Below, in pieces: positions 1 to 48,468 of a stretch of DNA of 49,848 bases. Each line of letters begins with the position of its first letter. The first letter of the stretch is position 1. Source of the DNA: a virus; the IMG/VR virus record IMGVR_UViG_3300044985_000034, positions 1 through 49,848 of that record. One strand, written 5' to 3'. Made by a program: the position numbers and the translations under genes. The notes under the pieces are model-generated. The model was not told the origin of the DNA, made no database searches, and saw nothing but the letters and a program-made list of their open reading frames with translations.

Positions 1-163
1 AGTTCTTGTGCTAATAGATGTCCTTGTCGGAATCCAATCACTTGTCCTTTACGTTGACGCTCGTTATCATGTTGTTTCTTACGTAACATCTTCCAAGCTG
101 TGATTTCATCTATTTGTTCTTGTGTATGTGTACCTTTTTCAACATCTGCTAAGTGCTCTGGGA
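1..163. repeat. Contig-end direct repeat, left copy
   Basis: These 163 bases are repeated at 49686-49848. The copies differ at one position only: A at 36 versus T at 49721. In the RNA polymerase reading frame this changes ATT to ATA, both isoleucine. The repeat lies inside a coding sequence, so it is most simply the overlap of a circular or permuted assembly rather than a biological terminal repeat. Unique length is about 49,685 bases. Confidence 0.95.
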
Positions 164-1133
164 ACGGGGTCATCTCTATCGTCTCACGATTAGGAATCCC
201 TATCTTCAAGTTCCTTTGGAATACTTGCTCCTGTACCTTCAATACTTCCTCGTTGATTTGCCAAGCTGTACGTTGCATCTTGTTCACAGCACGCTTATGT
301 TGGAGCGGGTTGTGTTCTGCTACGTATGCTCGGGCGTCTTTGCCTGTCGTCTTAATGAACGGCATTGACATACGAGGTGTGTAGTATCCTCCACGAGGAT
401 TATCGCCCCACGGAACTGGTGGGCATTTAAGTGGTAGGTACATAGGGAGTAGTAGACCCCGTTCCTTCTCGAACTCAGCAATCCAATCATCAAACTCTTG
501 AGTAGTATCTATGAAGAAATCAGTCTTTCCTCTGCTCATTAGTTTCTGAGTGAATATTAAATCGTCCATACCTTTAAGTAGGTTACGTAGTACACGTGCA
601 CCTATGTGTACTTTCATCTGTGTAGTCCAGTCATTCCACGCTAAACCAAAGTCGTTAAACTTCTTCATTAGAGCTTTCTGCATATGGACAGATGATGTCA
701 CAGCTTGGTCGTCGAATGACCGCATGACTGTGTGGAAGTACGCAGGGTACTCCGCTTCGAACATAGCGCATTTAAGTTCTGTCTCTAACTTACTTCCTAG
801 TTTAGATACAAACTTAGATACTCCTACCTTCTTTCCTTCGCCAATTTTAGCTAGTAGAAATTTAAGACCAATGTAACCAACTTTCATGTAGTCTTCATTA
901 TCACCAGCTACTTGACGTACTAGTTTATTATATGAAGCATTACGTCCACGTGCGCCTAGCTTGCAGTCGTCTTTAATCAAGTCGCCTACTATCTGCATTC
1001 TCTCTTTTAGAATGAATGTTGTACTATCTGTGAGTTCGTTTCCTTTCTCACGTGTTTTCTGCTGTAAGTCGAGGTATCGCTGTGACCCTCGCTTTAGGCA
1101 CTCTTGTTCCCATAGAAGTTGGTCTTGTGTCAT
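1..1133 (-). CDS. T7-type single-subunit RNA polymerase, N-terminal part (gene continues at the other contig end)
   Basis: This is the first 378 or so codons of a DNA-dependent RNA polymerase that would transcribe phage genes from phage promoters. The ATG is at 1133-1131, overlapping the stop of the endonuclease VII gene (TAATG). Reading off base 1 and continuing from base 49685 keeps the frame, giving a 797-residue protein that ends at 48425; T7 RNA polymerase is 883 residues. The N-terminal part is the promoter-recognition and thumb side; all catalytic motifs are in the 48425-49848 part. The gene follows the replication genes and precedes the structural genes, as in phiKMV-like phages. A second, divergent polymerase is at 19757-21766. 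Confidence 0.93.
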   Translation of the reverse strand, partial: MTQDQLLWEQECLKRGSQRYLDLQQKTREKGNELTDSTTFILKERMQIVGDLIKDDCKLGARGRNASYNKLVRQVAGDNEDYMKVGYIGLKFLLAKIGEGKKVGVSKFVSKLGSKLETELKCAMFEAEYPAYFHTVMRSFDDQAVTSSVHMQKALMKKFNDFGLAWNDWTTQMKVHIGARVLRNLLKGMDDLIFTQKLMSRGKTDFFIDTTQEFDDWIAEFEKERGLLLPMYLPLKCPPVPWGDNPRGGYYTPRMSMPFIKTTGKDARAYVAEHNPLQHKRAVNKMQRTAWQINEEVLKVQEQVFQRNLKIGIPNRETIEMTPFPEHLADVEKGTHTQEQIDEITAWKMLRKKQHDNERQRKGQVIGFRQGHLLAQE

Positions 1134-1516
1134 TATATAGCCTTCTTTCTAGCACGTGCTAACCGAGCCTTAGCGTTACGTTTGTCTCGCTGCATCTCTG
1201 GTGTCATGTGCGTTGGATGTATTAATTGGAACTTTAGGGCGGGTGGTTCTTCTAGGTACTTACCAAGCCCAATGATGTAGTCTTTTGCAGACACACCTTT
1301 GTGACCTAAGTTAGCCTTAGTCTTCACTCTCCCCTCAGCACCGTTACACGAATTATGTAATGCACCACGGACGTAGCCAGTAGTATGACAATGGTCAAGT
1401 ACTGGTCTATCTCGTGGTGTAAATGGCTTATTACATACCGCGCATTTGTTTCCCTGCTTACTGACCAATTGGTCACATACAGACTTAACCTCTGACGGTC
1501 GTAATTGTCTAGCCAT
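1133..1516 (-). CDS. Recombination endonuclease VII-like nuclease
   Basis: A 127-residue protein of the phage endonuclease VII (His-Me finger) family, which resolves branched DNA before packaging. The sequence shows the zinc-binding pair CAVCNKPF at residues 24-31, then LDHCHTTGYVRGALHNSCN at about 41-59. This contains the catalytic DHCH segment, the G-x-x-RG-x-L-H-x-x-CN signature and the second cysteine pair position. It is typical in length for the phage family. It overlaps the upstream gene by 8 bases and its TAA overlaps the polymerase ATG, so it is translationally coupled to both. In T7 the resolvase is gp3, a different fold; here the T4-type nuclease takes that role. Confidence 0.88.
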   Translation of the reverse strand: MARQLRPSEVKSVCDQLVSKQGNKCAVCNKPFTPRDRPVLDHCHTTGYVRGALHNSCNGAEGRVKTKANLGHKGVSAKDYIIGLGKYLEEPPALKFQLIHPTHMTPEMQRDKRNAKARLARARKKAI

Positions 1517-5262: not shown

Positions 5263-7575
5263 TTAATGTAATGTGCTCATAGTGAACATGTCTTCGCCAA
5301 TCTCGCTCTCGCAAGGGAATGGCACTGTGATGTTTAACTCGTCGTATGAGTTGTTAAACGTAGTTGGTACGTCTTCTAAGATTGCTTGTACTTCTCGTAC
5401 AACTGTATCAAACTTAGCGCCTTTACCGTCTAACCAAACACAATCGTGTACTGTATTAACTAGTAATATGTCACCATTGAATCGGTCATTCTTTAGCATG
5501 TAGCGGAATACTAGACCTAACATGGTCTGTACTATCTCTCCACCAAACCCTTGTACTGGATAGTTTTTACGCTCAGTTGGACTGAACCCTGTGTACTTTC
5601 CGTGTTTGTGCATGAAAGTTGGAGCAATACCTTCTCTCCACATATAGCGCGTTCCAGTAGGGCTATCCCAATGGGCTTCACCTTGTTTGAATGCGACCCC
5701 TTCAATAAAGAGGTTATGAGTTGTTGGTATACGGTTTGCATCTATCTCCGCCTTTAGTGCATCGTCGAACACTTTAACCATAGGGTACATAATCTCTTCT
5801 GCTGCTATCAGTTCATCTACTTCCGACTTAGGCATACCTATATCGTCAGCAATCGTCTGTGCACCACCACCGTATGCTCTCAAGAATGAGAACTTCTTAG
5901 CGAATGTACGACCTTGTTTGTATATCGTGTCTTCTTCTACGTGGCATTTATCCCATACGTATTGGTAGTCTTCATTTAATTTAGCGGCTAAACGCTTACA
6001 ATGGAAATCTACCTTATTGTTTAAATCTTGACATAGGTTAGGATCTCCTGTTAGTACACCTTGTACAACTACTTCCAGTTGGCTGTAGTCAATCTCAGCC
6101 ATTCTTCCACCTTCTTTAAATCTGCTTCTGAACATCTTCTTGACGTTGGATGTGTCTCCACGAGGGACATTCTGTAGGTTTGGGTCGGATGATGATAGTC
6201 TTGATGTAACCGTACTTGTGTGGTTAAGTTTGTGGTGGATAAGCCCTTGGCCGTCGACCAATGTAAGCATACCCTTACGCTTACCTTTCTTATCTTCTTT
6301 CCAGTAGTAAGTTCCCAAGTCTTTATCAAGACCCGTACGCTTAACAAGCGCGTCAGTGAAGGGCAAACCTCTCTCAGCAAGCTTAGATATGATCTTAGCT
6401 CCTGTGGAGTACAAGGGTTGGTCGTAAGCATCAGTCTGTTCTGACTTCCAAGCCCCTGAAGGCTTAGTATATCCATCAAACTTAAAGTAGTGCGGTTTTT
6501 GTGCACCTTTAGGTTTAGTGATATCGTCGGTCTTAACGTTGCGAAACTTACCTTCGCCAGCACGTTTTCCAGACATGTAACTATCTTGGACTTTGTAGAA
6601 TCGTTCATTGTGTTTAAATTGTCCTTGTGCCTCTGGTACTTCTAGTACGTATAACTCACCTGCTTTCTTACACTCACTAGGAGGTACAGGTATATTGTCG
6701 AATAGAGGATGTTTATCAGTCTTCTGTGCATATAGTACGTTTCCATTATCGTCGGTATGTGCTACCCACTTTGAATACTTTACTACACCACCAAAGATGA
6801 TACACGATTTGTGTGTGTTACTAGCCCAGTTAAATACTAACTCAGGTGGCAACTCAGGTATAAATGTCTCTAATGTTTTAGTTGCTTCTGCTAACTCAAT
6901 GATTAAGTCGTCACGTAATACGTTACCTACCTCACTGTCACAGAATACACCGTTGTATTCCATCTCACATGTAGCGAGTAGACCATCCATACGGTACTTT
7001 AACATTGTTCTAAATTCTTTTGGGTGATTCGCTTTCATCTCTTTTATCTGACCTGCGAATATCAACCATGTGTTCATTATGTCACCTACAATCTCTTTGT
7101 TACCAACTAGGTAATCATGTAGTAGGTCTGGTGGAATCTGACTGGTCAAGTAACCGTCTTCCCACATCTCTTTAACTGCGTCAATCTTCGTACCACCACC
7201 ATACTTGGTAGCAATATCGTTCATTGAACACATTTGTACGTCTTGTGTGTGACCGCCTAGTAAGTACTCAACGTATTGTCCACAATATATTGTAACACCG
7301 CGTTTGAGAGCTGCTTGGAAAGATGGACTATCCCATACCCATAGCACATCAAATTTGGTATTAAAACCATTAATAATATCACCATCTTCTAACTTGTCCC
7401 ATTGGTCTTTCATGATATCGTCACGATGCCATGCATCACAACGTTTTGATTCTGGCTTACCACCGTTCCATGACCAACCTGCTTCTACTACGTAGTTGCG
7501 TGGGTCAAATGGTGAGGCTAATCGTTTGTTTAGTCGGTGATTTTCGACTTCTAAATCAAAGGTAAGTACTTTCAT
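5263..7575 (-). CDS. DNA polymerase, family A (T7 gp5-like)
   Basis: A 770-residue replicative polymerase with an N-terminal 3'-5' exonuclease domain. Exo I is FDLEVEN (D7, E9) and Exo II is NGFNTKFD (D76). The Exo III position reads YLVGN (155-159), with Asn where the catalytic Asp is expected. Polymerase motif A is EIDYSQLE (D496). Motif B is RTFAKKFSFLRAYGG (556-570). Motif C is NTVHDCV (H710-D711). About 115 residues at 265-380 are poorly conserved and look like an insertion near the thumb, the region that binds thioredoxin in T7. The start overlaps the stop of the 66-aa gene upstream (ATGA). Confidence 0.96.
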   Translation of the reverse strand: MKVLTFDLEVENHRLNKRLASPFDPRNYVVEAGWSWNGGKPESKRCDAWHRDDIMKDQWDKLEDGDIINGFNTKFDVLWVWDSPSFQAALKRGVTIYCGQYVEYLLGGHTQDVQMCSMNDIATKYGGGTKIDAVKEMWEDGYLTSQIPPDLLHDYLVGNKEIVGDIMNTWLIFAGQIKEMKANHPKEFRTMLKYRMDGLLATCEMEYNGVFCDSEVGNVLRDDLIIELAEATKTLETFIPELPPELVFNWASNTHKSCIIFGGVVKYSKWVAHTDDNGNVLYAQKTDKHPLFDNIPVPPSECKKAGELYVLEVPEAQGQFKHNERFYKVQDSYMSGKRAGEGKFRNVKTDDITKPKGAQKPHYFKFDGYTKPSGAWKSEQTDAYDQPLYSTGAKIISKLAERGLPFTDALVKRTGLDKDLGTYYWKEDKKGKRKGMLTLVDGQGLIHHKLNHTSTVTSRLSSSDPNLQNVPRGDTSNVKKMFRSRFKEGGRMAEIDYSQLEVVVQGVLTGDPNLCQDLNNKVDFHCKRLAAKLNEDYQYVWDKCHVEEDTIYKQGRTFAKKFSFLRAYGGGAQTIADDIGMPKSEVDELIAAEEIMYPMVKVFDDALKAEIDANRIPTTHNLFIEGVAFKQGEAHWDSPTGTRYMWREGIAPTFMHKHGKYTGFSPTERKNYPVQGFGGEIVQTMLGLVFRYMLKNDRFNGDILLVNTVHDCVWLDGKGAKFDTVVREVQAILEDVPTTFNNSYDELNITVPFPCESEIGEDMFTMSTLH

Positions 7576-12483: not shown

Positions 12484-13099
12484 TATCTACTCCATGCTGT
12501 ACTGCATGACGGTGAGCAAAGAATACGATCTTCTCTGCACCGCGTTGTGTGGTATGACCCGCTTTCTGCTTACCTAATGTACGGGCTGCTGCTGTACGCC
12601 AAATCTCTTTGAACATATTAGCTTCTGCATACGTCATGTCTAATGATTCAATGATGTCGTTACATTCTGCTGTATACGTAGCATCATTCATATGCTCACC
12701 TTCATTATTTGATGGTGTTGTTGGATTCATTACATCTACTTGGTAGTAGTTACATGAACCACCTGAATCCTCTACGTCTTCTTCCATATCATCTTCGATT
12801 AGGATATCTGGCTTATTACCTGTAAGTAATGCGTGCATAAGTGGTGTTCTGAATGTACGTCCCCATGTTGGGTGTATTAACATGTTAAGTGGTGAGTCTA
12901 GTACCCACGGTACATGCCCTTCACCCTCCAACATGTCATTTATGCGGTCTATTGACCATACGCCGTATTGCTCACCACCTACTCTGTCCACATGGAATAT
13001 ACGTAGCTTGTCGGTATCTGGGTTGTCTTTGAATATCAACGGGTTGTTAGCGTTTGTATGGAATCGTACGTTTAATAGTTGTTCTTTAGTGTATTTCAT
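12473..13099 (-). CDS. Hypothetical protein with DUF3310-like C-terminal domain
   Basis: A 208-residue protein. The N-terminal 100 residues are of unknown type (PLIFKDNPDTDKLRIF, VGGEQYGVWS). An acidic linker (EDDMEEDVEDSGG) follows. The C-terminal part, CNDIIESLDMTYAEANMFKE then IWRTAAARTLGK and AEKIVFFAHR, has the order of the DUF3310-type domain found in T7 gp1.7-like nucleotide kinases. T7 gp1.7 also carries this at its C-terminus. The match is by pattern only, and kinase function is not shown. It is coupled to the helicase gene upstream and overlaps the lipoprotein gene. Confidence 0.6.
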   Translation of the reverse strand: MKYTKEQLLNVRFHTNANNPLIFKDNPDTDKLRIFHVDRVGGEQYGVWSIDRINDMLEGEGHVPWVLDSPLNMLIHPTWGRTFRTPLMHALLTGNKPDILIEDDMEEDVEDSGGSCNYYQVDVMNPTTPSNNEGEHMNDATYTAECNDIIESLDMTYAEANMFKEIWRTAAARTLGKQKAGHTTQRGAEKIVFFAHRHAVQHGVDNEQ

Positions 13100-14346
13100 T
13101 AGAAGAATCTCCCTCTATCTGCGTCGAATGTAATCTCCTCTCTCAAGTCTGACATACCTTCGCGCTTTGATTTAGTTTTAGGCATACTGATGCCGCGTTT
13201 AGCTTGTAGTAGTGGGTCGTCGCTAGAACCTAGCATAATGATACCATCACAAGCTCCTTGTTTACCTGTCTTGCTGTCCTTCAACATATTCTCTGTTGGG
13301 AACATTAGTCCTGCACCTTCGTTACTTATCTGGGATGTAGGGAATACGGGACAGTTGTATTTGACTCCGAGTTCTCTGCTCCACTGATACAGTTGTTCAA
13401 GGCGTTGGTCTTCTCGCAAGTCTTTTCTGGTGGGAAACTTAACATTGTCAAGCATATCAACAACAATAGCACCGATATTATCCAGTCCAATGTTCTCCAG
13501 AACATCTTCGAGATATGAGTTATTCTTTCCATGAATGTCATAGATTCGGACTCTGTCTTTACTTCCCATGGCTTTAATGTATTCATTAGTAAGCTCTCCT
13601 TTGGCTTTAAGCTTTGCAAGCTCGCCATTGGTCATGTTAAGTGCTGACATGATTTGCCGAGACATTATGCGTTGTCGTCGTGATTCGTTATTGAACCAGA
13701 CAATTATCTTGTTGTTAGGCATCTGCTGACACATACTCCAGTTAAGGAACGTTAGGAAGGAAGTCTTTCCCTTCCCTGGCCTAGCTGCTATGATGTACTG
13801 GTCACCACCTTGTATGTTACGATATATCTCATTCATACAGTCTAGAGGCCATCTCATACCATTGTCGTCGTTTTCTTCACCCACTGTTGAATCATCTAAG
13901 TCAGAGAACTCATGCGACGATGATCGCTCTATTGTCTCTTTAACTTTGGTGGTTATGTTATCAATAGCTAATACTATCTCAATCTCTTCACCTTGTTCAT
14001 ACTCACTGATAAGGTTGCCTACGTCCGTAGCAAACTCTAGTTCTAACAGTTGGTTTATAATGTTCTTTTTAACTGACTCTGCAACGTCTGTCTGCATACG
14101 GTCAATTAGTTGGTTGTAGTAGTCGCAGTCGCTCTCACCCATGCCTTTGTGCCATGTTGTGAAGAACATACTACGGAATGCAGGGAAGTCAATTTGGGCT
14201 TCGTCTTCATTCATTTCAAAGTACTTACGAATATCGTCTGTTACAGCCTTTGTACGCTTATCAATTGCGCTTCGTGGGATGTAACGGTGTACTTTGTCGT
14301 ATTGTTCTTTGTATTTAATTATGCGTAGTAAGGCTAAGTCAATCAT
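13099..14346 (-). CDS. Replicative DNA helicase, DnaB/T7 gp4 C-terminal type
   Basis: A 415-residue hexameric helicase that would unwind the fork on the lagging strand. The Walker A motif is ARPGKGKTS at about 188-196, Walker B is IGAIVVDMLDN near 290, and the sensor region is FPTSQISNEGAG near 345. The N-terminal 160 residues lack a zinc finger or TOPRIM domain, so this is helicase only; primase is encoded separately two genes upstream. A short acidic linker (DDSTVGEENDDN) joins the parts. It shares single-base overlaps with both flanking genes. Confidence 0.92.
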   Translation of the reverse strand: MIDLALLRIIKYKEQYDKVHRYIPRSAIDKRTKAVTDDIRKYFEMNEDEAQIDFPAFRSMFFTTWHKGMGESDCDYYNQLIDRMQTDVAESVKKNIINQLLELEFATDVGNLISEYEQGEEIEIVLAIDNITTKVKETIERSSSHEFSDLDDSTVGEENDDNGMRWPLDCMNEIYRNIQGGDQYIIAARPGKGKTSFLTFLNWSMCQQMPNNKIIVWFNNESRRQRIMSRQIMSALNMTNGELAKLKAKGELTNEYIKAMGSKDRVRIYDIHGKNNSYLEDVLENIGLDNIGAIVVDMLDNVKFPTRKDLREDQRLEQLYQWSRELGVKYNCPVFPTSQISNEGAGLMFPTENMLKDSKTGKQGACDGIIMLGSSDDPLLQAKRGISMPKTKSKREGMSDLREEITFDADRGRFF

Positions 14347-14564
14347 TAGTTGTTTCCTCGGGTGTCCTGTACATCAATACGTTTTAGTATCTCCATAGCA
14401 AACTGGTAAGCTTGATAGTTATCCATTGAAATTAGTAATGGTACTTGTGTACGTGAGTCTAAGTTGTTACCTTCATCATCCATTGACCTGCAACATCTTA
14501 ACACTATGTCTGCGTTGTAGCTTTGTCTTGATAATTCTACGTCTGCGCCTTTAAAGTTAAACAT
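14346..14564 (-). CDS. Small hypothetical protein between primase and helicase (72 aa)
   Basis: A 72-residue protein (MFNFKGADVELSRQSYNADI..., LISMDNYQAYQFAMEILKRI) with a predicted beta start and a C-terminal helix. It overlaps primase by 8 bases and the helicase start by 1 base, so it is part of the primosome operon. It could help join the separated primase and helicase; that is inference from position only. Confidence 0.75.
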   Translation of the reverse strand: MFNFKGADVELSRQSYNADIVLRCCRSMDDEGNNLDSRTQVPLLISMDNYQAYQFAMEILKRIDVQDTRGNN

Positions 14565-15357
14565 TTAATTGGCTCCTTATATCCTTATCGGAAAGTTCTT
14601 TAGGGTCTAATGGAGTTAGTATATTACTAACTGTTGTTAAAAGACTTAATGTCTTTCGAATCTTGTATGCACCTTGCCTTCCTGCTCTATCTGCATCAAG
14701 CCACGTTGTGACTTCGCTATATTGTCCAAGATGAGCTGCTTGTGCTGTAGTAATCTTGGTGCCAAGTAAGGATACGGTGTTAATATGTCTCCCAACTCTA
14801 ATTGCTGATAGGATATCTTCAACGACAATAACTCGTTGTACATCTTCTCTGCATAAGGTGACGTGAAACATGACTTTACTTCTATCTCTTGCGGGTTGCA
14901 AGTATTTAGGTTTCTGTCCTGCTTGTAGCGCTCTGCACTGATACCAGATAAGGTTATCTTGGGCATCGTATACAGGGAGTACAACTCTATCAAGTCTTTC
15001 TGAATAGCCAATATTATGGCTTCGATAGACTGGCTCGGTGATACCTGCTTTGAACAGCCACATCCTCGCGTGTAGTGGTAGGTCATTAGTGAAGTCCTTT
15101 GGTAGGTCTAGTGTTAGTTCAATTGATTCAGCAGCCTTGTTAAGCTCCTGAATACGTGTTAGTTCTGCTAGGGATTGTTTACCTTTGTACTCAATGTCGG
15201 TAAAACCACAGCGATAGCAATTGCACCAGTATGACTTCATTGAATGAGTCACACTTAGCTTTTCGCCACTACCACAGTTTTCTGGACAGAGTGTTTGTAC
15301 CTTACCGTTTAGTGGTAGGTCTTTAGCAATGTCTTTCCAATTCTTCATCTTCATCAT
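14557..15357 (-). CDS. DNA primase (zinc finger plus TOPRIM)
   Basis: A 266-residue primase corresponding to the N-terminal half of T7 gp4. The zinc-binding part has CPENC near 24-28 and CNCYRC near 46-51, used for template recognition. The TOPRIM fold shows VIVVEDILSAIRVG near 170 (catalytic Glu), SLLGTK near 190 and WLDADRAGRQ near 215 (the DxD metal pair). It has no ATPase domain, so priming and unwinding are split between two genes. A second start is possible at the internal M3. It lies downstream of the tRNA and a 38-aa gene. Confidence 0.92.
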   Translation of the reverse strand: MMKMKNWKDIAKDLPLNGKVQTLCPENCGSGEKLSVTHSMKSYWCNCYRCGFTDIEYKGKQSLAELTRIQELNKAAESIELTLDLPKDFTNDLPLHARMWLFKAGITEPVYRSHNIGYSERLDRVVLPVYDAQDNLIWYQCRALQAGQKPKYLQPARDRSKVMFHVTLCREDVQRVIVVEDILSAIRVGRHINTVSLLGTKITTAQAAHLGQYSEVTTWLDADRAGRQGAYKIRKTLSLLTTVSNILTPLDPKELSDKDIRSQLNV

Positions 15358-16200: not shown

Positions 16201-16221
16201 TTGAAAAGCTTACTACAAGGA

Positions 16222-18373: not shown

Positions 18374-18374
18374 G

Positions 18375-18524
18375 TTATTTACTCTTATGTCGTGTAATGA
18401 TTAATGGTTTGGCGTTTGCTCTCGCACGCCAGTTGTCTTTGTTACTTGCTACTATACCATTCGAGGGTGTGGCGGTACGTAACATACGTTCTACAATCTC
18501 TTCTGGGTGTTTTAATGATTTCAT
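18375..18524 (-). CDS. Small basic hypothetical protein (49 aa)
   Basis: A frame of 49 codons from ATG at 18524 to TAA at 18375, ending one base before the SPFH ATG. The product (MKSLKHPEEIVERMLRTATP...) is rich in Lys and Arg at its C-terminus (RHKSK). The upstream AAGGTTAAGATA leader contains AAGG. Tight spacing supports it; function unknown. Confidence 0.58.
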   Translation of the reverse strand: MKSLKHPEEIVERMLRTATPSNGIVASNKDNWRARANAKPLIITRHKSK

Positions 18525-19112: not shown

Positions 19113-19365
19113 TGTCGGTTTCCTTTTGTTGTGAATTTGTTGGGCATTGTCGGTATCCCCTCCCGTCCCGCTTTTGACCTTGGCGAGTCTCCGAGCTGCA
19201 CTTAGTGATTGAACGGTGTTACGTTCAGCCTCGCAGAGCTCTTTTGACCTTAGCGTCAGGATGACAAGAGCGTTAGTGCTTTAGCACGCAGGGAAGACGA
19301 AGTCTTTCATGAACGCCCATCTTGTGACCTTAATCTTTAATCACTAAATCTTTAAGACCTTGACC
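19113..19365 (-). promoter_or_regulatory. Intergenic control region with TAAGGTCAA repeats
   Basis: This 253-base gap holds no gene. On the minus strand it carries four copies of the motif TAAGGTCA or close variants (plus-strand ttgacctt at 19174, 19244, 19325 and 19360). Two of them are extended to TAAAGATTAAGGTCA and lie 35 bases apart. A hairpin (GTGCTAAAGCAC) sits near 19282. It follows the early RNA polymerase by two transcription units, so the repeats may be promoter or operator elements; this is inference. Confidence 0.5.
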
Positions 19366-19542: not shown

Positions 19543-19712
19543 GTTAACCTCTGGTGTTGTGTGTGGTGCGCCCTCCGCTTGAGGAGTCCCCGAAGGGAAC
19601 ACGCTTTTAGCTGAGGGACGAAGTTTCATTATAATCACTAGGCTTTAGTTGCCGTCTGCTAGGACGAACTTGACCTGTGACGTGGGAGCGCAGCGACCTC
19701 AGTCACTAACGC

Positions 19713-19736
19713 GATAAAGGCACAATTAAGTGCCTC
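19713..19736 (-). terminator. Intrinsic terminator after the early RNA polymerase gene
   Basis: Minus strand: stem AGGCAC/GTGCCT with loop TTAATT followed by TTTATC, 21 bases after the polymerase stop at 19757. It would end the transcript of the polymerase operon. Confidence 0.7.
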
Positions 19737-19756: not shown

Positions 19757-21766
19757 TTAGCTAAATAAGTATGTACTCTCTAATACATCTGTTAAGTTCA
19801 GCCCGTTATCTTCTTGTTCGTATTCTTCCGATATACCCATAGCACTGTATAGTGTTTCAAGTGGTTTGGCTTGTATCACTTCTACATATGCGATTCTTAC
19901 CGCTTGTAATGCTTTTCTAACGTCACAAGTTTGTACACCTATATCATCATGTATACAACTGATATCGCTATCAATATAGTTAACTGCTTTACGCAATAAC
20001 TCGCTATCTAAAGAATGAACAAGATTAGGTGCAATACCGCGTGCAAGTGCTTCATGGTCTGCAAAGCTATCACCTGTTAACTTTGCCGTATAGCTTGAGC
20101 CGTATAGGTTCAATGCTTGGCTGTTCATAGGTTTTAGTTTTACTTTAATATCACTTAACTGGTAGGTGATAGACGTTAAAAGATCTTCACCTTCGTTTTT
20201 GCGTGTATCTTGTATGTCTTTTAAATCAATTTGTAAGTAGTTGTTAAGTTTAGTTATTGCCGCGAATTCCGCGTCAATGGCTGACATAATAAGTTTTTGT
20301 ATGCTCTTGGCGTTGTTTGTGCGTTCGTTGTTCTCTTTCAAGAACTCTCGAACGGTGCGTATAAGTGTATCTTCCCCAGCACCATACGCTAATATCATAA
20401 CCACTTTTTTAGTGAGGTCACGCATATACTTTTTAATTATGTTTCTATCTGTTCCTTTCTTTGCTAGTTTTAGCGCTGTTTCAGCTACTAACCCGTAACA
20501 ATCTTCGGGTTCATCGTCTGGCGAACTAATACCAACGTTTACCGCTTTAGCTGTTTGCGAGTCTAAAAATAAGCCTGATGTTATTTGAACACCCGAACAA
20601 GTACCATCAATACGCGCGATGATGTTTGTTAACCCACTCGTTTTATATTCAACGTATGCAAGGCGCGAACGCTCTGCATATAATGAATCACTCGGGGTTG
20701 TCATTAGTTTTATATGGTTATTCTTCACCCATGTCATACGGTCTGTGATGCTTGCTTTATCGTAACCGTGAGCGTTTGCTATGTGTAAGAATAAGCCGTA
20801 TTCGTCCACTTTTGTATAGTTGGCGAAATCAAATGCTGCCCTCAAATCCTTTACACCTTGGAAGGTAGTTAAACCACCTCGTGCATATGCTCTGCCTCTA
20901 TAATCTGGTGTGTGTGGAAAATAGTAAGCTTTGTTCATAGACAATTCCAGCATAGATCTCATTGTTGCTTCTAATGGTTCACCGTCTACAGTCTTCTTAT
21001 ATAGACCTTTCTTCAAATTCTTTTTGATCTTGGCGCGTATGGTGTTGTTAACGATGTAGCCTGTATGCCCCATTTTATTTAAGGAGTCTATAAAGTGTTG
21101 CGTTACTTCTTCGTTAAAATACAAGTTTGTAAGCTCGCATACTACGCGCATACCTTTCTTATACCATGTTAAAGGGAACAGCATTGGTTTCATTTTTGGC
21201 TTGGCATGTTCCCACATATCGATCATGGTACTTAATCTAAGCTCTATTATTTCAGCAGTCGCCGCATTACCTAAGAAAGTGTGTCCTTCCTCGCTTTGTC
21301 CTTCTGTTAACTCACTGACTATTATTTCATCAATGATAAACTGTTTAACAATCGCCTGTGCAATTGCTGTAATATCTATTGTTTGTACTATTAATACACT
21401 GTCTTCATCGATCCAGTTTTCTATCGCGGTAGCTATATGATTTTCAGAGGTGTAACCGCTCATTAAAACACTATAAGCCGCAACCATGTATAAACTAGCA
21501 TTTAAGCTCTGTGGCATCCCCTTAGCAGTTTTCATACCTTCAGGGAATACGCGTATCGTTTCTTCTTCAACCACGTTATCAGATAAGCGCGTTATTATGT
21601 TGCCAGTTAAACGGCTAGCTAATTGGTTTAAGTAAATACGCTCTTTACCACCTGCAACCATGAAATCTAGTTCCATTTGTTTAGTAGTACAAGCCACGTT
21701 ATCAAGTACCGTGTTTTGTATTACTGCAAAAAGTTTGGCTATTGGTGTGTTTATATTGTTTAACAT
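19757..21766 (-). CDS. Second, divergent single-subunit (T7-family) RNA polymerase
   Basis: A 669-residue DNA-dependent RNA polymerase. T7 catalytic motifs are intact: TPDYRGRAYA near 286 (T7 DxRGR), motif A RIDGTCSGVQITSG (D387, T7 D537), motif B RDLTKKVVMILAYGAGE (R449, K453, Y461; T7 R627, K631, Y639) and motif C CIHDDIG (H606-D607; T7 H811-D812). The C-terminus LNLTDVLESTYLFS parallels T7 LNLRDILESDFAFA. The N-terminal domain is about 150 residues shorter than T7's. It occupies the early gene-1 position, has a GGAGC ribosome site and its own terminator. The other polymerase (1-1133 plus 48425-49848) is closer to T7 and lies before the late genes. Confidence 0.95.
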   Translation of the reverse strand: MLNNINTPIAKLFAVIQNTVLDNVACTTKQMELDFMVAGGKERIYLNQLASRLTGNIITRLSDNVVEEETIRVFPEGMKTAKGMPQSLNASLYMVAAYSVLMSGYTSENHIATAIENWIDEDSVLIVQTIDITAIAQAIVKQFIIDEIIVSELTEGQSEEGHTFLGNAATAEIIELRLSTMIDMWEHAKPKMKPMLFPLTWYKKGMRVVCELTNLYFNEEVTQHFIDSLNKMGHTGYIVNNTIRAKIKKNLKKGLYKKTVDGEPLEATMRSMLELSMNKAYYFPHTPDYRGRAYARGGLTTFQGVKDLRAAFDFANYTKVDEYGLFLHIANAHGYDKASITDRMTWVKNNHIKLMTTPSDSLYAERSRLAYVEYKTSGLTNIIARIDGTCSGVQITSGLFLDSQTAKAVNVGISSPDDEPEDCYGLVAETALKLAKKGTDRNIIKKYMRDLTKKVVMILAYGAGEDTLIRTVREFLKENNERTNNAKSIQKLIMSAIDAEFAAITKLNNYLQIDLKDIQDTRKNEGEDLLTSITYQLSDIKVKLKPMNSQALNLYGSSYTAKLTGDSFADHEALARGIAPNLVHSLDSELLRKAVNYIDSDISCIHDDIGVQTCDVRKALQAVRIAYVEVIQAKPLETLYSAMGISEEYEQEDNGLNLTDVLESTYLFS

Positions 21767-22081: not shown

Positions 22082-22517
22082 AGTACTCTCCAGTTGTTTA
22101 CGGTTATCACGGTTGTTCGTTTTCGGGCGTAACGCTTGTAACTCAGGTGAATAGGTTGTACCAGTCGCGCTTGCGCCCTCGAAGAGGTTGACTTGTACGT
22201 TCTAGGCACTTGTGTTTCAACTTGAGTGAAGCCGCAAACGGACGAGTGTGATAATCATAGCACCGAGAGTGTTGTCTAACTAAACAGAAGTGCTTAGTGA
22301 TACTTACAATATCAGTGGTAAGTAAGATTTACTTGACCTTATCTTTTGAACTTAATCTCTTGAACTTGACCTTAATTACTGCCCGTCTAGCGAGAAGCAT
22401 TTAACGTCTCTTTGTTAAATCTTGGAGTAGGGAGAGTCTTTTGACCTTCCCTTATTCCCTAACTAATTATTACGTTGTAAGCTACTATAATCTTTACTAG
22501 TAACTTATACTTAATAA
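22082..22517 (-). promoter_or_regulatory. Gene-free control region upstream of the early RNA polymerase operon
   Basis: These 436 bases contain no convincing gene. They hold at least three TTGACCTT(A) motifs on the plus strand (22333, 22366, 22441) plus the variants TTGAACTTA at 22346 and TTGAACTT at 22360, a density not seen elsewhere. Several GC-richer imperfect inverted repeats lie at 22140-22260. It separates the first early block from the polymerase operon, so promoters or operators are likely, but I cannot fix a start site. Confidence 0.5.
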
Positions 22518-23426: not shown

Positions 23427-23861
23427 TTACTCCGCATACTTACTTAATGAATTTAAAGCACATCTAACAACATGCTGATCTTTGAACTGTATAACTAGCC
23501 TACATGCCTGAGCATACTTACTAGCTTGTTGCCTACCATAACCATAGTTATCCATTATAGACAACTGACTGATGGTAGGAAGTTTATGTAACATACTCCT
23601 AACTACAGCAATATTAAGCTTAGAGCCTTTATGACTATCAGCCGTAGTAAATGAACGAACAACACCTGTTATTATATCATCAAGTGCTTCATCAATTGTG
23701 TACTCTTCATGTATATCAGCTAATATAGAACCTACATTATTGTTAGCAACTACTAAAGCCTTACGACCATAGTTAGCATACTTAGTAACAACAACACCTG
23801 CGGCTGGTAACTTAACACCTTTAAGACGTAACATTCTACGCTCGAAGTCAACCAATGACAT
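23427..23861 (-). CDS. Early protein with HTH-like segment (144 aa)
   Basis: A 144-residue basic protein. Residues about 95-125 (ISQLSIMDNYGYGRQQASKY) read like a helix-turn-helix in which YGYGRQQASKYAQ is the recognition helix region. Other parts (MSLVDFERRMLRLKGVKL) are helical and basic. It may be a DNA-binding early regulator. The leader contains AGGAGTATATT. I do not recognise the family. Confidence 0.7.
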   Translation of the reverse strand: MSLVDFERRMLRLKGVKLPAAGVVVTKYANYGRKALVVANNNVGSILADIHEEYTIDEALDDIITGVVRSFTTADSHKGSKLNIAVVRSMLHKLPTISQLSIMDNYGYGRQQASKYAQACRLVIQFKDQHVVRCALNSLSKYAE

Positions 23862-23870
23862 AATATACTC

Positions 23871-23942
23871 CTAGTCACCCATACTGATACATAACATTAC
23901 AACTATACTTAACATTATAACTATACTTAATAATAACTCCAT
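23871..23942 (-). CDS. Tiny membrane peptide (23 aa)
   Basis: ATG at 23942 preceded by TAGGAGGTAGT, an excellent ribosome site. The peptide is almost wholly hydrophobic (ELLLSIVIMLSIVVMLCIS), a single transmembrane helix. Phages often encode such micro-membrane proteins early; their targets are mostly unknown. Confidence 0.55.
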   Translation of the reverse strand: MELLLSIVIMLSIVVMLCISMGD

Positions 23943-24013
23943 ACTACCTCCTATCTACTTAATTAATGTTAAGCGTCACCTTGTTCTAAAACTCATTCTA
24001 TGAAATTATACGG

Positions 24014-24160
24014 TTATGCCTTTGACTCTAGCTTACTAACGTAGTCTTTCATCAGGAGTATTAAGCATTTACGTATAACACTTATTATACCTCCTGTGTT
24101 ATCTCTTTGTAAATCAGCTAATAAACCTTTTGCTAATACTTTTCTTTTATTCATGTTCAT
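24014..24160 (-). CDS. Small basic protein, first gene of the early region (48 aa)
   Basis: ATG at 24160 with AGTAGGAGGTTACT upstream. The 48-residue product (MNMNKRKVLAKGLLADLQRD...) has a basic start and a hydrophobic helix (IISVIRKCLILLMKDYVSK). It is the first frame after the gene-free segment that separates terminase from the early genes. Confidence 0.62.
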   Translation of the reverse strand: MNMNKRKVLAKGLLADLQRDNTGGIISVIRKCLILLMKDYVSKLESKA

Positions 24161-24340
24161 AGTAACCTCCTACTAATTCATCTATCTACTATCCTAATGT
24201 TCTGGATAAGCTTTGCATTTGCCGCCCTATAATAAAGAAGGATAGGGCAGTTTAGTACATAAATGTTAGCACATAGAGAACAGTACAACACACATATAAA
24301 CACATACTACACACATACAAACACATTTAATACACTTTCG

Positions 24341-24363
24341 AAAAAGACATATCAAGGGATGTA
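24341..24363. repeat. 23-base direct repeat, copy 1
   Basis: The 23 bases from 24341 (starting AAAAAGACATATCA) recur at 24393-24415 with two mismatches, 52 bases apart. The length is like that of T7-family promoters (about 23 bp), so a phage promoter or a binding site is possible on the minus strand, but nothing fixes the function. Confidence 0.75.
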
Positions 24364-24392
24364 GCAGTGAGCATATACATAACACTGAAAGC

Positions 24393-24415
24393 AAAAAGAC
24401 ATATCAGTGGATGTA
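24393..24415. repeat. 23-base direct repeat, copy 2
   Basis: Second copy of the unit at 24341-24363, differing at two central positions (AAGG versus AGTG context). Both copies precede the first early gene. Confidence 0.75.
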
Positions 24416-25354: not shown

Positions 25355-25785
25355 TATTTAGATTCCTCTATGTCTGTGTCTTTAGCATCTTCTGTTTTTA
25401 CTTCTAATGCTGTAATTGCGTCTGCTAGTTCAATAGCTAACTTGTCTGTAGTTAGACGTTCATCTAAGTCAATCTCTAACTTAGCTGCTTCATCTAAAAT
25501 TTCTTTACGTTGTTTCGTGTCTAGCGCCAAAGCTTCTACTTCTAGTGCTAAAGCTTCATCTACTTTACGTTTAGCTTCTAGTGCTTCTTCACGTTTGACT
25601 TCTTCTTTCTCGAACTCAACGATTTTGGTATGCATGAATTTAATAACGGCTTTCAGTAACGCCATACGATGCTTATGCTCGCGTGCCTTATTGAAAGTTG
25701 CCACTAAAACAGTGCGAAGTTTACCTAGTGCCTGTAGTGTATCTGTAGGCATATCGGTTATTTCTAAGTATGATTTGTACATCAT
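25354..25785 (-). CDS. Coiled-coil protein after large terminase (143 aa)
   Basis: A 143-residue protein dominated by a long charged coiled coil (KIVEFEKEEVKREEALEAKR onward, then LDERLTTDKLAIELADAITAL). There is no transmembrane segment, so it is not a normal Rz spanin even though it lies where T7 has lysis genes. The start ATGATG overlaps the terminase stop. Function unknown. Confidence 0.74.
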   Translation of the reverse strand: MMYKSYLEITDMPTDTLQALGKLRTVLVATFNKAREHKHRMALLKAVIKFMHTKIVEFEKEEVKREEALEAKRKVDEALALEVEALALDTKQRKEILDEAAKLEIDLDERLTTDKLAIELADAITALEVKTEDAKDTDIEESK

Positions 25786-27827
25786 CTGTTCCTTCTGAAC
25801 TTGTGGTTTCTCTTGGATGTTGACTTGAATCTATCTGATGATAGTCCTAGACAACCGTTTTGGTTCCCGCCTACGTCTGCGCCCCATAGTGCCATAAAGC
25901 CTATATTCTCGTCAGTTTCCTTCTGAGACATACGTTTATGTTCATCTATAGCTAGCATCTCAACCCAGTGCCTGACTGAACCTGCTACTGCATCAAGGCT
26001 ATCGTCGTGTATTAAGCTACCACGTTCACGGCTAATTTTAGCCATTTGGTGGAAGAACTTATACGACTCGCGTTGGTCAATTGGGTATCTTGTGACACTA
26101 TCTACATCGTATTGGATTATATCCTCATGGATGATTAGGCGGTGTCGCGCCATTACTGGTTCTAGTACGTCTATTATACGTAGCTCTTTCTGACCACTCT
26201 CCCACACATCTTCAATAGCAGGACACATTGTTAGTTCTGCTTTCTCGTATGTTGCGTGAAGTATTGGTCGCCAAGCTGCTGCAAATGCACCGTACCCGAA
26301 GTTTTTCTCTACCTCTATACTATTTACTCGGTGTCTGAGTGATAGGTCTGATAGTTGTTGGTAGTACTCAGGGCTATAACCTCCTGGCAGCTTCAATATC
26401 TCTGCTAGGAATATGTAGCCATGCAAATGGTATGTAACTGCTGCTACAGTCTCATCTCCATTCTCACCACCACCAGCGGTATCCACATACATGTGTTTAC
26501 CTTCGAACTTATATAGTTCTGCTGACATTTGGAATGGTCTATAGAACTGTGGTTTAGATGTGAACTTACCGTCACATGCTATCAAGTTCTGTGGGCTAGG
26601 CATCCATGTGATCTCACCCGGTGCCTTGTCCATCCCGAAGCTCATTACTACTAAGTTCTTTGTCTTTAAAGGATGTCTTAATGCATCTGACAGCTCAGTG
26701 TTTAACATGTGCTGTAAGTTGAAGTAAGCTGTACCTTGATCTAGCTCTTTGTCGGTTAACGCTTGTTCACCTAGTAAAACAGGGTCAGTTGGTACACCAC
26801 GTGTTCCATCTACTCCACCGCCTATCTGGTTCTTAGGGTCGTCCATCATAGCTTGTATGTAGGGTGCTAGTGTTTCCCCGTAGTGCTTAGCTTCCTCGTT
26901 GGTTGGTACTCGACCAGTCCAAACACGGATAATATAACCACGGGAAGGGAGATTATTATAGATGGAATCTACCGTTTGTGGCGTTCCCATATACAAAATA
27001 CGCCCTTTTTGACAGATGGATGTAAAATCCTTTGACAAATGCTCAAGTGCCGCCCTTTGCGTTTCTGTTGTCCCGTTCTTTGATGATTCTATATCATCTG
27101 GTATTAGTAAGTCAGCCCTCCGACCTTGCATATTGGCTGTAATACCTATACACGCAATCGAAGGGGACTTCTCAGCACCTTTTAACTGCCAATTGATGTC
27201 AAAAGCTTTACTTGAAGCTCTGTCACCATGTTGGCGGTCTGGTCGTAGACACTCTAACATGTCCCAACTCATAATTATCTGGATAATCCAGTTAGCAATC
27301 TCTGCCGCAACTTCGCTACCTGCTGACACCACCAGTATACGGTGTTTACAGTCATGTATTAGTTGCCATACAGCGAACATCGCTACGATTGTACTCTTTG
27401 CTTGTGATCTCTGCGCTTGAACCATGCCATATTGCACGCCCGATTGTAGAAATTCACCAATGTCTATCTGTAAGTCAGTACATTGGAAGCCCATAAGCTC
27501 AGTCATACAATCGTAGAGGAAGTCCTCAAATTCAACGTAGTGCTCACGTAGAGCTTCTACTTCTGCCCATCGGAGTACACACTGACGTTCAACCTCGGAT
27601 AGAGTATTCATATACTCCATATCGTTAGCCATGCGGGTAAACTCTTGGTCTTCCGCAAACTCGTCTACTGCTTGACGTGCAGGACTTAGTAAGTCCCACT
27701 CTTCGTCAGTGTATTCACCTTCTGGTGCATCTAGGTAGTCATCGTTGCGTTCTGCCATAATTGCCAGTGCCATCTCTTCGGTCAAATCCTCTCGGAGTTG
27801 CTCGTAAGTCATGTCTTTTATACGCAT
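25782..27827 (-). CDS. Terminase large subunit (DNA packaging ATPase-nuclease)
   Basis: A 681-residue packaging motor of the T7 gp19 type. The ATPase shows a deviant Walker A AQRSQAKSTIVA near 140 with RILVVSAGS following, and Walker B ADLLIPDDIESS near 235. The nuclease half shows HMYVDTAGGGENGDETVAA near 450, IEVEKNFGYGAFAAAW near 500 and the acidic LIHDDSLDAVAG near 635, consistent with RNase H-like metal sites. It starts 3 bases after the small terminase gene and overlaps the coiled-coil gene. Confidence 0.94.
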   Translation of the reverse strand: MRIKDMTYEQLREDLTEEMALAIMAERNDDYLDAPEGEYTDEEWDLLSPARQAVDEFAEDQEFTRMANDMEYMNTLSEVERQCVLRWAEVEALREHYVEFEDFLYDCMTELMGFQCTDLQIDIGEFLQSGVQYGMVQAQRSQAKSTIVAMFAVWQLIHDCKHRILVVSAGSEVAAEIANWIIQIIMSWDMLECLRPDRQHGDRASSKAFDINWQLKGAEKSPSIACIGITANMQGRRADLLIPDDIESSKNGTTETQRAALEHLSKDFTSICQKGRILYMGTPQTVDSIYNNLPSRGYIIRVWTGRVPTNEEAKHYGETLAPYIQAMMDDPKNQIGGGVDGTRGVPTDPVLLGEQALTDKELDQGTAYFNLQHMLNTELSDALRHPLKTKNLVVMSFGMDKAPGEITWMPSPQNLIACDGKFTSKPQFYRPFQMSAELYKFEGKHMYVDTAGGGENGDETVAAVTYHLHGYIFLAEILKLPGGYSPEYYQQLSDLSLRHRVNSIEVEKNFGYGAFAAAWRPILHATYEKAELTMCPAIEDVWESGQKELRIIDVLEPVMARHRLIIHEDIIQYDVDSVTRYPIDQRESYKFFHQMAKISRERGSLIHDDSLDAVAGSVRHWVEMLAIDEHKRMSQKETDENIGFMALWGADVGGNQNGCLGLSSDRFKSTSKRNHKFRRNR

Positions 27828-31048: not shown

Positions 31049-31301
31049 GTATTCTCCTTACAAGCCTCTCACAGTCTAGTGTTTGATGTACTGCTGAGAC
31101 TGGTTTAGTATTGTAATTTAGTAGTATATTACTACCGTTAATTTGTTAAGGGTTATCCCCTCCGTGTGGCAGGTCTTAGACCTCCGTTGTTCATTGAAAT
31201 TTATTAAAAAATAACAATCATAAAAGCACCTCTAAAAAGAAGTGCTTTGAGTTTGTTACTATTTGACTAAGTAATACTTATCGTAGGTGTTAATGATTCA
31301 C
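31049..31301 (-). promoter_or_regulatory. Gene-free leader between tail fibre and accessory tail genes
   Basis: About 250 bases with no gene. It starts with the tail-fibre terminator (31205-31248) and continues with a leader to the gene at 30824-31048. Transcription should restart here, so a phage promoter is expected, but I see no promoter sequence repeated elsewhere with confidence. Confidence 0.4.
31205..31248 (-). terminator. Strong intrinsic terminator after the tail fibre gene
   Basis: Minus strand: AAAGCACTTC, loop TTTTTA, GAGGTGCTTT, then TATGATTGTTATTTTTT. A 9-10 bp stem and a T-rich tail, about 55 bases after the tail fibre stop. Confidence 0.85.
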
Positions 31302-46130: not shown

Positions 46131-47678
46131 TTATTGTGTTGGTTGTTGAGGCTGAGCCGCTACTTTAGCTTGCTCTTCCATACCGACCATTTGTGCTTGT
46201 TGCTTCATACGCTGTTCACGGGCTGCTTCAACTACATCTTTGTCCTTTAAGAACTTCTTGTAGTCTACGCCATGTCCTGCACCTAGCATTGCTATAACAT
46301 CGCTGAATTCCATCCACTCTTTCACTTCGTCTGGTACGTCAGATAGAATAATCATGTCCTGCATAAATGCTCGGAAATTATCTAACTCACTGTTACGAGA
46401 TAGTGATTCAAGTCCTGTAACGATAACAGGTTCGATGTCTTTAAATACGGCGTCTAAGTTTCTTAATGCACGTCTAGCTAGAGGTAGTTGTAGTTCAGTA
46501 GCAAGTCGTGAATAAACACCACCTAATGAACCTTCTAACTCTTGAGCTTGCATTCTAATCTCTTGTGCTGTAACACGCTCTGCGTCACGAGTGACTGCTG
46601 AGTTTAAGAGGAATGCTGCACCAATGCGTCTAGCTACTTGGTCGAACTGATGTGATAGGAAGTCAGTGACGTTCGCTACTTGAGGTTGATGTACGAATAT
46701 ATCTTCTTCTCTACCATGTACGTATGCACCTGATGGGGATTCTGTTAACTCTCGTACGTCTGTCATACCTGCTGGATTTACTAAGTTCTTCACATCTGTC
46801 ATAACAGTTGTATAGTCTACTATAGCTTCCGATAGGTTAGACAACTTGTGGAAGTCACCTGAGTATAATTCTACTAAACCTGTACCGTAGTCTTTACCAC
46901 GTGCTAAATCCCATGTTAATGGAATCCAAGGTAGTTCGTCCTGCTTATACACACCGATTGATTTATGGCAGTAGCAAATGTCTTCCAACTCTTGCCATAC
47001 CATGAACTTATCGTCACCCACTTTCTGGATGCCTGTGTAAATAGATACGTTGTCCTCTGACATGTAACCCGCTGCCTCTGCAATAGCTGCTAGCTCGTCA
47101 CTTAGTCCTGACACTGATTTAGTTTCACGTATGATACACTTAATCATTCTACCACGTAGGTCACGTTTTGCTGTATAGTCACGTAATGAATACGCTACCA
47201 TGTCGGCGTTAACGTCTTTCGGTGCATAGATTAAACTGTTACCAGTAATGATTAACTGCTTCATAACATCGTGCATTATAATACGCGCGTTAGAGGCATT
47301 CATGTTAGTCATGGCTGCTCGTTCAGCTTCCGCTAGTGATGCGTCTATCTGTGCACCCTTCGTACCTGTAGCTAATACTTCTTGTCGTTGCTCTTGTGTC
47401 AAGTTCATACGAAAGAATGGTCTTGATGGTTGGAATAGTGCCATCATTATTTTGTTTGATAAGTTGGTGACTGCTTGAGCGCCTACTGATTGGTAATCCA
47501 GTTGCATCTCATCGTACTCCATTAAGGGGTCGTCTGGGAATACCGTTGGTATAGTCCAACCTGCATAACGCTCACAGCGGGTCAATGTTTCTTCTCGGCT
47601 ATAGTCGCCTTCTAGGAACTCCCCGCGTAATACATAATCACCAGACAAATGTTTTGCTTTTATCTCGTCTATGTGCAT
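46131..47678 (-). CDS. Portal protein (head-tail connector), T7 gp8-like
   Basis: A 515-residue portal, typical for T7 gp8 (536 aa). Visible family segments are RCERYAGWTIPTVFPDDP, YQSVGAQAVTNLSNKIMMAL, FQPSRPFFRMNL, RDYTAKRDLRGRM and AEERVTAQEIRMQAQELEGS-like (DAERVTAQEIRMQAQELEG). It is 1 base after the 81-aa gene and 15 bases before the scaffold. Confidence 0.95.
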   Translation of the reverse strand: MHIDEIKAKHLSGDYVLRGEFLEGDYSREETLTRCERYAGWTIPTVFPDDPLMEYDEMQLDYQSVGAQAVTNLSNKIMMALFQPSRPFFRMNLTQEQRQEVLATGTKGAQIDASLAEAERAAMTNMNASNARIIMHDVMKQLIITGNSLIYAPKDVNADMVAYSLRDYTAKRDLRGRMIKCIIRETKSVSGLSDELAAIAEAAGYMSEDNVSIYTGIQKVGDDKFMVWQELEDICYCHKSIGVYKQDELPWIPLTWDLARGKDYGTGLVELYSGDFHKLSNLSEAIVDYTTVMTDVKNLVNPAGMTDVRELTESPSGAYVHGREEDIFVHQPQVANVTDFLSHQFDQVARRIGAAFLLNSAVTRDAERVTAQEIRMQAQELEGSLGGVYSRLATELQLPLARRALRNLDAVFKDIEPVIVTGLESLSRNSELDNFRAFMQDMIILSDVPDEVKEWMEFSDVIAMLGAGHGVDYKKFLKDKDVVEAAREQRMKQQAQMVGMEEQAKVAAQPQQPTQ

Positions 47679-47928: not shown

Positions 47929-48468
47929 TTAATCCTGATGTGTTAGTTGGTTTGAATAACTGATGAACTCATCGTAGTTATCAAACGTTAAGTCATCAAC
48001 TAGTTCATCAGGGTTACTGACGTCCGTTAAGTGTGCTGTGTTCCAGACTGCTTCCTCTGGTGCATACACTACACGTTGAGTACCTGCCTTACTTATAAAT
48101 GTACAAGGGGCTACATACTCGTTGTGTCCATTAGAGTCTATTACAATAACTCGACCTGTTGAGATAATGTTAACTAATGGCCGCTTATGTACACGGCTAA
48201 GAACTATAGAACCTTTCGGTATTAATAACTCCCGTACGTATAACCCGTCAACCATATGGTTAGTTACATTATCTTCTAGCATGATTTTAGCTAGGTCACC
48301 GTCTTCATTGAATTGCTCTAAGTAAGCACGAAGTGGACGTACTTCTTTGTCGAACGTAGTAGGCGTAAGTCCTGCTAAGCTCGCTGAAATTATTTGGAGG
48401 TTTATTCCCTCCGTGTGTAGGGCTTTAGCCAAAGAAGTAAGTGGCTTTTGTAATGTCGTCAATGTCAT
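47929..48468 (-). CDS. Cupin-like/beta-barrel hypothetical protein (179 aa)
   Basis: An open frame continues to 48615, but GGGGAG lies just before ATG at 48468, which overlaps the polymerase 3' end by 44 bases, so I start there. The 179-residue protein has a helical N-terminus and a beta-barrel-like region (GSIVLSRVHKRPLVNIISTG, then VIVIDSNGHNEYVAPCTFIS) that resembles a cupin/jelly roll with a buried loop. Related proteins sit between polymerase and portal in T7-like phages. The function is not known. Confidence 0.7.
   Translation of the reverse strand: MTLTTLQKPLTSLAKALHTEGINLQIISASLAGLTPTTFDKEVRPLRAYLEQFNEDGDLAKIMLEDNVTNHMVDGLYVRELLIPKGSIVLSRVHKRPLVNIISTGRVIVIDSNGHNEYVAPCTFISKAGTQRVVYAPEEAVWNTAHLTDVSNPDELVDDLTFDNYDEFISYSNQLTHQD

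Follow-up and report, generated by a model that had tools for sequence, protein, structure and literature searches.

Two T7-family RNA polymerase genes in a Foturvirus/Tawavirus-like phage and a possible relay of transcription from host to early to late enzyme

Control by a single phage RNA polymerase is a hallmark of T7-like phages, and in T7 the phage polymerase alone does nearly all phage transcription; what, then, would a phage of this kind do with two? The question is raised by IMG/VR virus record IMGVR_UViG_3300044985_000034 (the window, meaning here the whole analysed stretch of 49,848 nt). A 669-residue open frame on its minus strand (19757..21766), recognized by homology, catalytic residues and a structural model, lies in the position of T7 gene 1, and we refer to its product as the early polymerase. 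Two further minus-strand frames at the contig ends encode the N-terminal part (1..1133) and, by homology, the C-terminal part (48425..49848), where motifs A, B and C lie, of a second enzyme, the late polymerase. The ends of this contig overlap by 163 bp (49686..49848 with 1–163; one mismatch, 99.4% identity) and close it into a circle of 49,685 bp, in which the 377 and 473 residues of the end frames become a single frame of 797 residues; the mismatch leaves the late protein unaltered, VIGFRQ being encoded by both copies. The answer that we favor, with a probability of a little under 60%, is that an ancestor of this phage group acquired the second polymerase, which took a place in the early region, and that host, early and late polymerases act as a relay in which the late enzyme is the ancestral one of phiKMV type.

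A preliminary description, made from the sequence alone, had proposed that these are two full and highly divergent T7-family polymerases, each with complete motifs A, B and C and the catalytic Asp, Lys, Tyr and His-Asp residues, and our searches bore this out. The early enzyme scored 100 bits against Pfam PF00940 (curated cut-off 22) and thus passes as a T7-family single-subunit RNA polymerase, the E-values within the window's own record being 2.6e-28 for the early and 1.2e-91 for the late enzyme, and T7 RNA polymerase was the top match for both in PDB sequence searches. A profile of the early family aligned early residues 125–669 with T7 residues 202–883 (2.5e-75, 20% identity) and equated D387, R449/K453/M457/Y461 and H606/D607 of the early enzyme with D537, R627/K631/M635/Y639 and H811/D812 of T7. 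The first five are invariant in 16/16 aligned early enzymes, and H606 and D607 are nearly so, one row (L023) stopping short of both; this 16-row profile, A5, does not include L011, L012, L016 and five named-phage copies outside IMG/VR. All of the listed residues are kept in the late enzyme and in 12/12 late-clade members, so careful alignment revealed no catalytic residue lost from either enzyme.

A model of the early enzyme built from 16 relatives (mean pLDDT 87.1, pTM 0.83) has the complete T7 polymerase fold. Its best structural alignment was to T7 elongation complexes (Z 38.3 over 595 residues), model residues 6–668 aligning onto T7 1–882 across the whole fold, a shorter N-terminal domain included, and the closest model in a viral library was that of the phiV141 early enzyme (TM 0.82). 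Like T7 RNA polymerase in gene position, fold and catalytic residues, the early enzyme differs from it in length: 289 residues precede its R290, the counterpart of T7 R423, compared to 422 in T7, the sole polymerase of its phage, and 392 in the late enzyme. The suggestion that about 150 N-terminal residues are absent was therefore roughly right as to size (a deficit of about 133 relative to T7, or 103 relative to the late enzyme), but the missing residues are dispersed over the N-terminal domain and linker and do not amount to a cut at one end. A beta-hairpin of the model (strands 149–157 and 163–169) is the equivalent of the T7 intercalating hairpin, which, along with the specificity loop, is used by T7-type enzymes at promoters.

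More distant structural alignments were to mitochondrial polymerases (Z about 24–34), the large subunit of N4 RNAPII (24.5) and N4 mini-vRNAP (about 20–21). The second of these bears on a reading that we consider very unlikely, namely that the early enzyme is a fused polymerase resembling N4 RNAPII, which would need phage activators and act on single-stranded or pre-melted middle promoters. N4 RNAPII (gp15/gp16) is likewise a T7-family polymerase of a phage other than T7, the combined length of its subunits (269+404 aa) is near that of the early enzyme, and N4-like matches were also found among the PHROG families. However, T7 was the better match in both sequence and fold, N4 RNAPII fell outside the early clade (its very long branch making its place unsure), and the early gene is one unsplit frame whereas the N4 enzyme is divided into two subunits. 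N4 RNAPII also has no T7-type late partner, and is instead paired with a virion polymerase.

The preliminary description had raised the alternative that one of the two enzymes is a dead copy, and the early gene, being divergent, shorter, fast evolving and broken in phage PhPV1.2, would be the one to suspect. Three diverged pairs of early enzymes gave dN/dS ratios of about 0.13 (0.127 for H4/4 versus R8W, 0.131 for L020 versus L023, and 0.126 for the window versus L010, this last a rough value at a dS of about 2), and two near-identical pairs with few changes gave 0.20 and 0.30; the late enzymes of H4/4 and R8W gave 0.038. By these ratios both enzymes are under purifying selection. Together with the open frame, the invariant catalytic residues and the retention of the early gene in 12/12 genomes spanning its site, the ratios refute decay in the window and in those relatives that were tested. 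Judging from identities between the window and L010 (94% for TerL and helicase, 72% for primase, 67% for the early polymerase), the early enzyme does evolve faster than some of its neighbors.

The statement that T7-like phages normally encode one such enzyme stood up to a wider search. A tblastn search of 50,697 phage records with the early enzyme identified 2329 places in 2301 records, and thus at most 28 extra places; the records listed with two were those of H4/4 (two records), R8W, JSF7 (two records) and 20 Vibrio K-series phages, and with the H4/4 and JSF7 enzymes as queries phiV141 and PhPV1.2 came up as well. A PF00940 search of 19 named records showed two separate genes in H4/4, K437b, JSF7, R8W, phiV141, PhPV1.2 (its early gene broken in the deposited record) and Lactococcus phage KSY1, and a single gene in 11/11 other Autographiviridae records, controls that were picked by hand, several from match lists showing one place, and so are not a random sample. 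N4 also showed one PF00940 gene, its virion polymerase being undetected by this search. KSY1 resembles the window in that a single record has two distinct frames matching PF00940 (615 and 820 aa), and differs in its Lactococcus host and its size of 79 kb. An alignment search of IMG/VR identified 18 early-family loci, eight of them in two-gene records, of which two are H4/4 and JSF7 themselves. A single-sequence search of viral contigs with the early enzyme identified no relative, and a second viral profile scan brought in 11 more loci, all of which match only part of the early enzyme; one of them, L097, matches residues 89–356, lies close to the end of its contig and may belong to the early clade as a truncated copy. 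Among bacterial genome contigs there were 37 matching loci, each matching only from about residue 244 on and none clearly belonging to the early clade.

The pair also occurs, with its gene order kept, in Alteromonas phages H4/4 and R8W, in Vibrio phages JSF7, phiV141 and K437b, and in six IMG/VR contigs, and both genes are present in 12/12 genomes or contigs that span both positions (17 were compared, five of which, G004, G008, L010, L011 and L012, end short of the late site). A few genes being unmatched in some genomes, the conserved order runs TerL, left end, early polymerase, primase, helicase, DNA polymerase, exonuclease, ligase, endonuclease VII, late polymerase, portal and capsid. By homology and gene order we located in the window, all on the minus strand, a T7-type terminase large subunit just before the genome left end (25782..27827) and a middle module with a DNA primase (14557..15357), a DnaB-like helicase (13099..14346) and a family A DNA polymerase (5263..7575). 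An endonuclease VII gene (1133..1516, minus strand) lies directly upstream of the late polymerase and a portal (head-tail adaptor) gene near the start of the structural genes (46131..47678, minus strand), in the same places as the annotated H4/4 gp28 and gp32, respectively. Comparison of gene orders agreed with the earlier placement of the early gene in the T7 gene-1 position and of the late gene in the phiKMV position: in phiKMV, RHEph02 and Atu_ph02 too a T7-family polymerase gene lies between the exonuclease/endonuclease VII genes and portal, although these phages have one polymerase only.

In its gene order and in the clades of both its polymerases the window agrees with the two-polymerase autographiviruses, and it is a phage of the T7 supergroup that falls in the Foturvirus/Tawavirus-like group, a small group of which it is a new and divergent member. 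The pair is thus not unique to it: among named phages, the Foturvirus members H4/4 and R8W, the Tawavirus members JSF7 and phiV141, and the Vibrio K-series already have it. H4/4 and R8W (Autographiviridae) match the window in gene order and in the places of both polymerases; unlike it, they have an early enzyme only 27% identical and a late one 54–55% identical to those of the window. The layout and the clades are also shared by JSF7, phiV141 and K437b-like phages, at 22–24% identity for the early and 43–45% for the late enzyme.

A tree of 42 enzymes placed all 19 early rows together in one clade and all 12 late rows in a second, each with support of 100/100 (L011 and L012 as near copies of L010, L016 as 99.9% identical to L018, L024/L025 and L032/L035 as copies of H4/4 and JSF7, and the broken PhPV1.2 gene were left out). 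The late clade joins the single-polymerase phages RHEph02, Atu_ph02 and Vibrio 1.204.O (97/93), and the early clade sits on a long stem beside phiKMV and SnaP-R1 (97/90), its exact neighbor being unsure. Duplication within the lineage was rejected, as a tree with early and late enzymes as sisters had a p-AU of 0.002, from which it follows that the early enzyme was probably acquired once and long ago, by the ancestor of the group. The two enzymes have, going by these trees, probably been inherited together since before the split between the Vibrio and H4/4-like phages. An apparent conflict between the early and late trees over the place of the window was discarded, since joining the window's early lineage to the H4/4-like group, which is the arrangement in the late tree, was not rejected (p-AU 0.158).

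In the relay that we favor, the host RNA polymerase would transcribe the left-end genes, the early polymerase among them; the early enzyme would start at phage promoters just past its own gene, in the place of T7 phi1.1A/B, and transcribe the replication module, at the end of which lies the late polymerase gene; and the late enzyme, whose specificity loop differs, would transcribe the capsid, tail and packaging genes from promoters of its own. This order of action is inferred. What makes such a cascade plausible is the gene order, the conserved pair and the unlike specificity loops: those of the window's two enzymes have no likeness by eye. Between lineages the late loop is 23–43% identical, compared to 43–58% for the whole protein, and the early loop 3–21%, compared to 22–27% (66% in L010 and 41% in L013). 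That both loops change fast would explain promoters specific to a lineage, and why footprinting failed at such distance.

The loops also bear on a rather improbable reading in which the pair is redundant or a back-up for host range, either enzyme sufficing at overlapping promoters. A single promoter-like class at both the middle and late starts of the window, described below, would fit such an arrangement. Against it are the dissimilar loops, both fast-changing between lineages, and the fact that neither gene has been lost from any of the 12 genomes spanning both sites, PhPV1.2, with its broken early gene, being the sole exception seen.

Directly 3' of the early gene is a non-coding stretch with a hairpin (AGGCAC-TTAATT-GTGCCT, 19718..19735, minus strand) and a 36-base block (GTGACTGAGGTCGCTGCGCTCCCACGTCACAGGTCA, 19671..19706, minus strand), both invariant in L010 and L011 even though much of the surrounding DNA differs and the flanks of the block have diverged. 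The preliminary description had given the early gene its own terminator, which stands insofar as a conserved hairpin follows the gene; termination there is doubtful because its U-tract is weak, and a terminator scan listed the stem on the plus strand only, opposite to the direction of the gene. The stability of the region is mildly above that of shuffled sequences (z -1.6 to -1.9), and Rfam gave no match at gathering scores in the window, H4/4 or R8W. The equivalent place in T7 is occupied by promoters phi1.1A and phi1.1B, according to the annotation of the T7 record. The primary T7 origin lies in the phi1.1 promoter region, and this stretch, kept in relatives, lends some weight to the chief rival of the cascade, a real if unlikely possibility: that the main task of the early enzyme is to prime replication at an origin past its own gene, or to pull the genome in, nearly all transcription being left to the late enzyme. 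The occurrence of one promoter-like element, GGAGGGRATA, at both middle and late starts, as though one enzyme read both, points the same way. However, the phage itself encodes a primase and a DnaB-like helicase, the early enzyme retains the hairpin and specificity-loop regions that serve T7-type enzymes at promoters, and the late gene ends the replication module as in phiKMV, so that something must transcribe the module first.

If the two polymerases have separate tasks, two classes of promoter should exist, and we identified two candidate promoter-like elements in the window's lineage, AGGTCAAAAG and CACACGGAGGGRATA, both leads picked after looking. GGAGGGRATA has three copies in the window, all on the sense (minus) strand and all intergenic, at 48412, 31163 and 19163. 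They are GGAGGGAATA inside CACACGGAGGGAATAAACC (48403..48412), a candidate late promoter directly after the late polymerase; GGAGGGGATA inside CACACGGAGGGGATAACCC (31154..31163), a candidate late promoter after a 940-aa tail gene; and GGAGGGGATA (19154..19163), a candidate phage promoter where the middle region begins. The first two are alike beyond the core as well (CACACGGAGGG), and a sequence similar to the third follows the early gene in L010 and L011 when aligned by eye, the L010 site scoring below the best coding matches of that contig. Being present after both polymerase genes, this element may not separate the two enzymes. The three copies of AGGTCAAAAG in the window all lie within 0.7 kb of the early gene, none antisense; L010 has two copies, as does L011, which nearly duplicates it, and these too lie on both sides of the early gene. 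In its 11-mer form, AAGGTCAAAAG, it is found on the minus strand upstream of the early polymerase (22438..22448), as a candidate promoter or operator, and downstream at 19241..19251 and at 19171..19181, the latter beside the GGAGGGGATA site; the count of three exceeds that of the best word in all 60 shuffles, whereas the 10-mer AGGTCAAAAG fails to beat all shuffles.

Neither candidate turned up in the other lineages searched, H4/4 and R8W included, and no promoter family common to the clade was found. A mismatch-tolerant word search of intergenic DNA in 10 genomes, with five shuffles each, found two promoter families in none of them; words beat the shuffles only in G006 and JSF7, by one copy, the G006 word being doubled by the repeated ends of its contig. 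The JSF7 word, AAGCACTAGTGCACAT, has four copies, one above its shuffles, and its loose matches favor the sense strand (sense:antisense 12:3 in JSF7, 14:3 in phiV141 and 10:1 in K437b), scattered and many inside genes. Word-based motif discovery, a check that the preliminary description had put forward, yielded no convincing family, and the candidate elements, which would fit the two-step cascade proposed there, are few.

At the left end of the genome a sigma70-like TTTACA-18-TATAAT (24084..24113, minus strand) is a weak candidate host promoter upstream of the first early gene; of 11 left ends scanned for a sigma70-like early promoter, that of the window was the only one to beat all 20 shuffles. 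Comparison of relatives, the count leaving out L012, revealed a left-end element with two minus-strand copies in the window, TATGTCTTTTTG (24392..24403) and TATGTCTTTTTC (24340..24351), which is missing from Vibrio phages JSF7, phiV141 and the K437b-like phages. A hairpin promoter of the N4 vRNAP type at this element (GGGC-loop-GCCC before TATGTCTCTTTT) was considered and is not proposed, since the hairpin is evident in some loci but has decayed elsewhere.

The second polymerase of this group has been annotated before and is, as far as the open literature shows, unstudied; we found no open-access paper on the function of the pair. The H4/4 genome announcement of 2017 lists 'two DNA-dependent RNA polymerases' without comment (PMC5658483). 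The main text of the R8W paper does not use the words RNA polymerase (PMC8228385), the JSF7 paper names a phage RNA polymerase among its ORFs (PMC12628668), and Tawavirus is listed among the genera of Vibrio autographiviruses (PMC9331696); jumbo phages with two multisubunit polymerases are a separate matter (PMC7598289). We put at slightly less than even odds the fuller proposal that this group runs a three-stage program, with host, acquired early phage and ancestral late phage polymerases, in which the phage enzymes are orthogonal, in one piece, and of promoter specificities that change fast between lineages. If true, this would be a transcription strategy between those of T7 and N4, of which we found no description, and a clade keeping a non-sister second polymerase would show how a simple viral transcription program gains a stage. 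Each genome would moreover offer two natural enzyme-promoter pairs, and since H4/4, R8W and the Vibrio phages are in culture, a cascade can be tested directly.

The named members of the two-polymerase group come from the sea or other waters.

A left-end element (GTGGGC..GCCCAGA)TATGTCTYTTTT occurs twice on the minus strand of the window, at 24392-24403 and 24340-24351, and its copies recur in both of the two-polymerase Alteromonas phages, at positions 219, 240 and 259 of H4/4 and 32 and 56 of R8W, as well as at further loci. Most H4/4-like members keep it upstream of the early genes; it is absent from the three Vibrio phages JSF7, phiV141 and K437b. The annotated 217-bp terminal repeat of H4/4 has the element at its edge, and we ask whether it might be a packaging site or an early promoter. 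The ends of the window itself overlap (1-163 and 49686-49848) with a single mismatch; this leaves the amino-acid sequence of the late polymerase unchanged and appears to reflect variation between strains.

In the replication region, the primase/helicase and DNA polymerase genes are each preceded by a long, apparently structured non-coding stretch (15440-16221 and 7773-8612 in the window; 13283-13553 and 7365-7571 in H4/4). Compared by eye, these stretches are alike among H4/4, R8W and one further genome (G012); those of the window, H4/4 and R8W had no Rfam match at gathering. The window also encodes a tRNA-Gln (anticodon ttg) spanning 94 bases at 15459-15552 (-), and its early region an SPFH/Band 7 domain protein (17483-18373, -; PF01145; phrog_200, named lipoprotein).

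The early polymerase of Vibrio phage PhPV1.2 is fragmented (34671-36100 and 23817-24317), with stops within and one fragment inverted, so that either the gene is broken or the record is misassembled. Lactococcus phage KSY1 (NC_009817) has two PF00940 frames of 615 and 820 aa, matched at 6244-7092 and 17445-18392, and is possibly an independent two-polymerase case. Another virus with two polymerases is perhaps represented by the 85-kb viral record IMGVR_UViG_3300044695_003432 (loci L095 and L098), where polymerase-profile matches fall at two places far apart.
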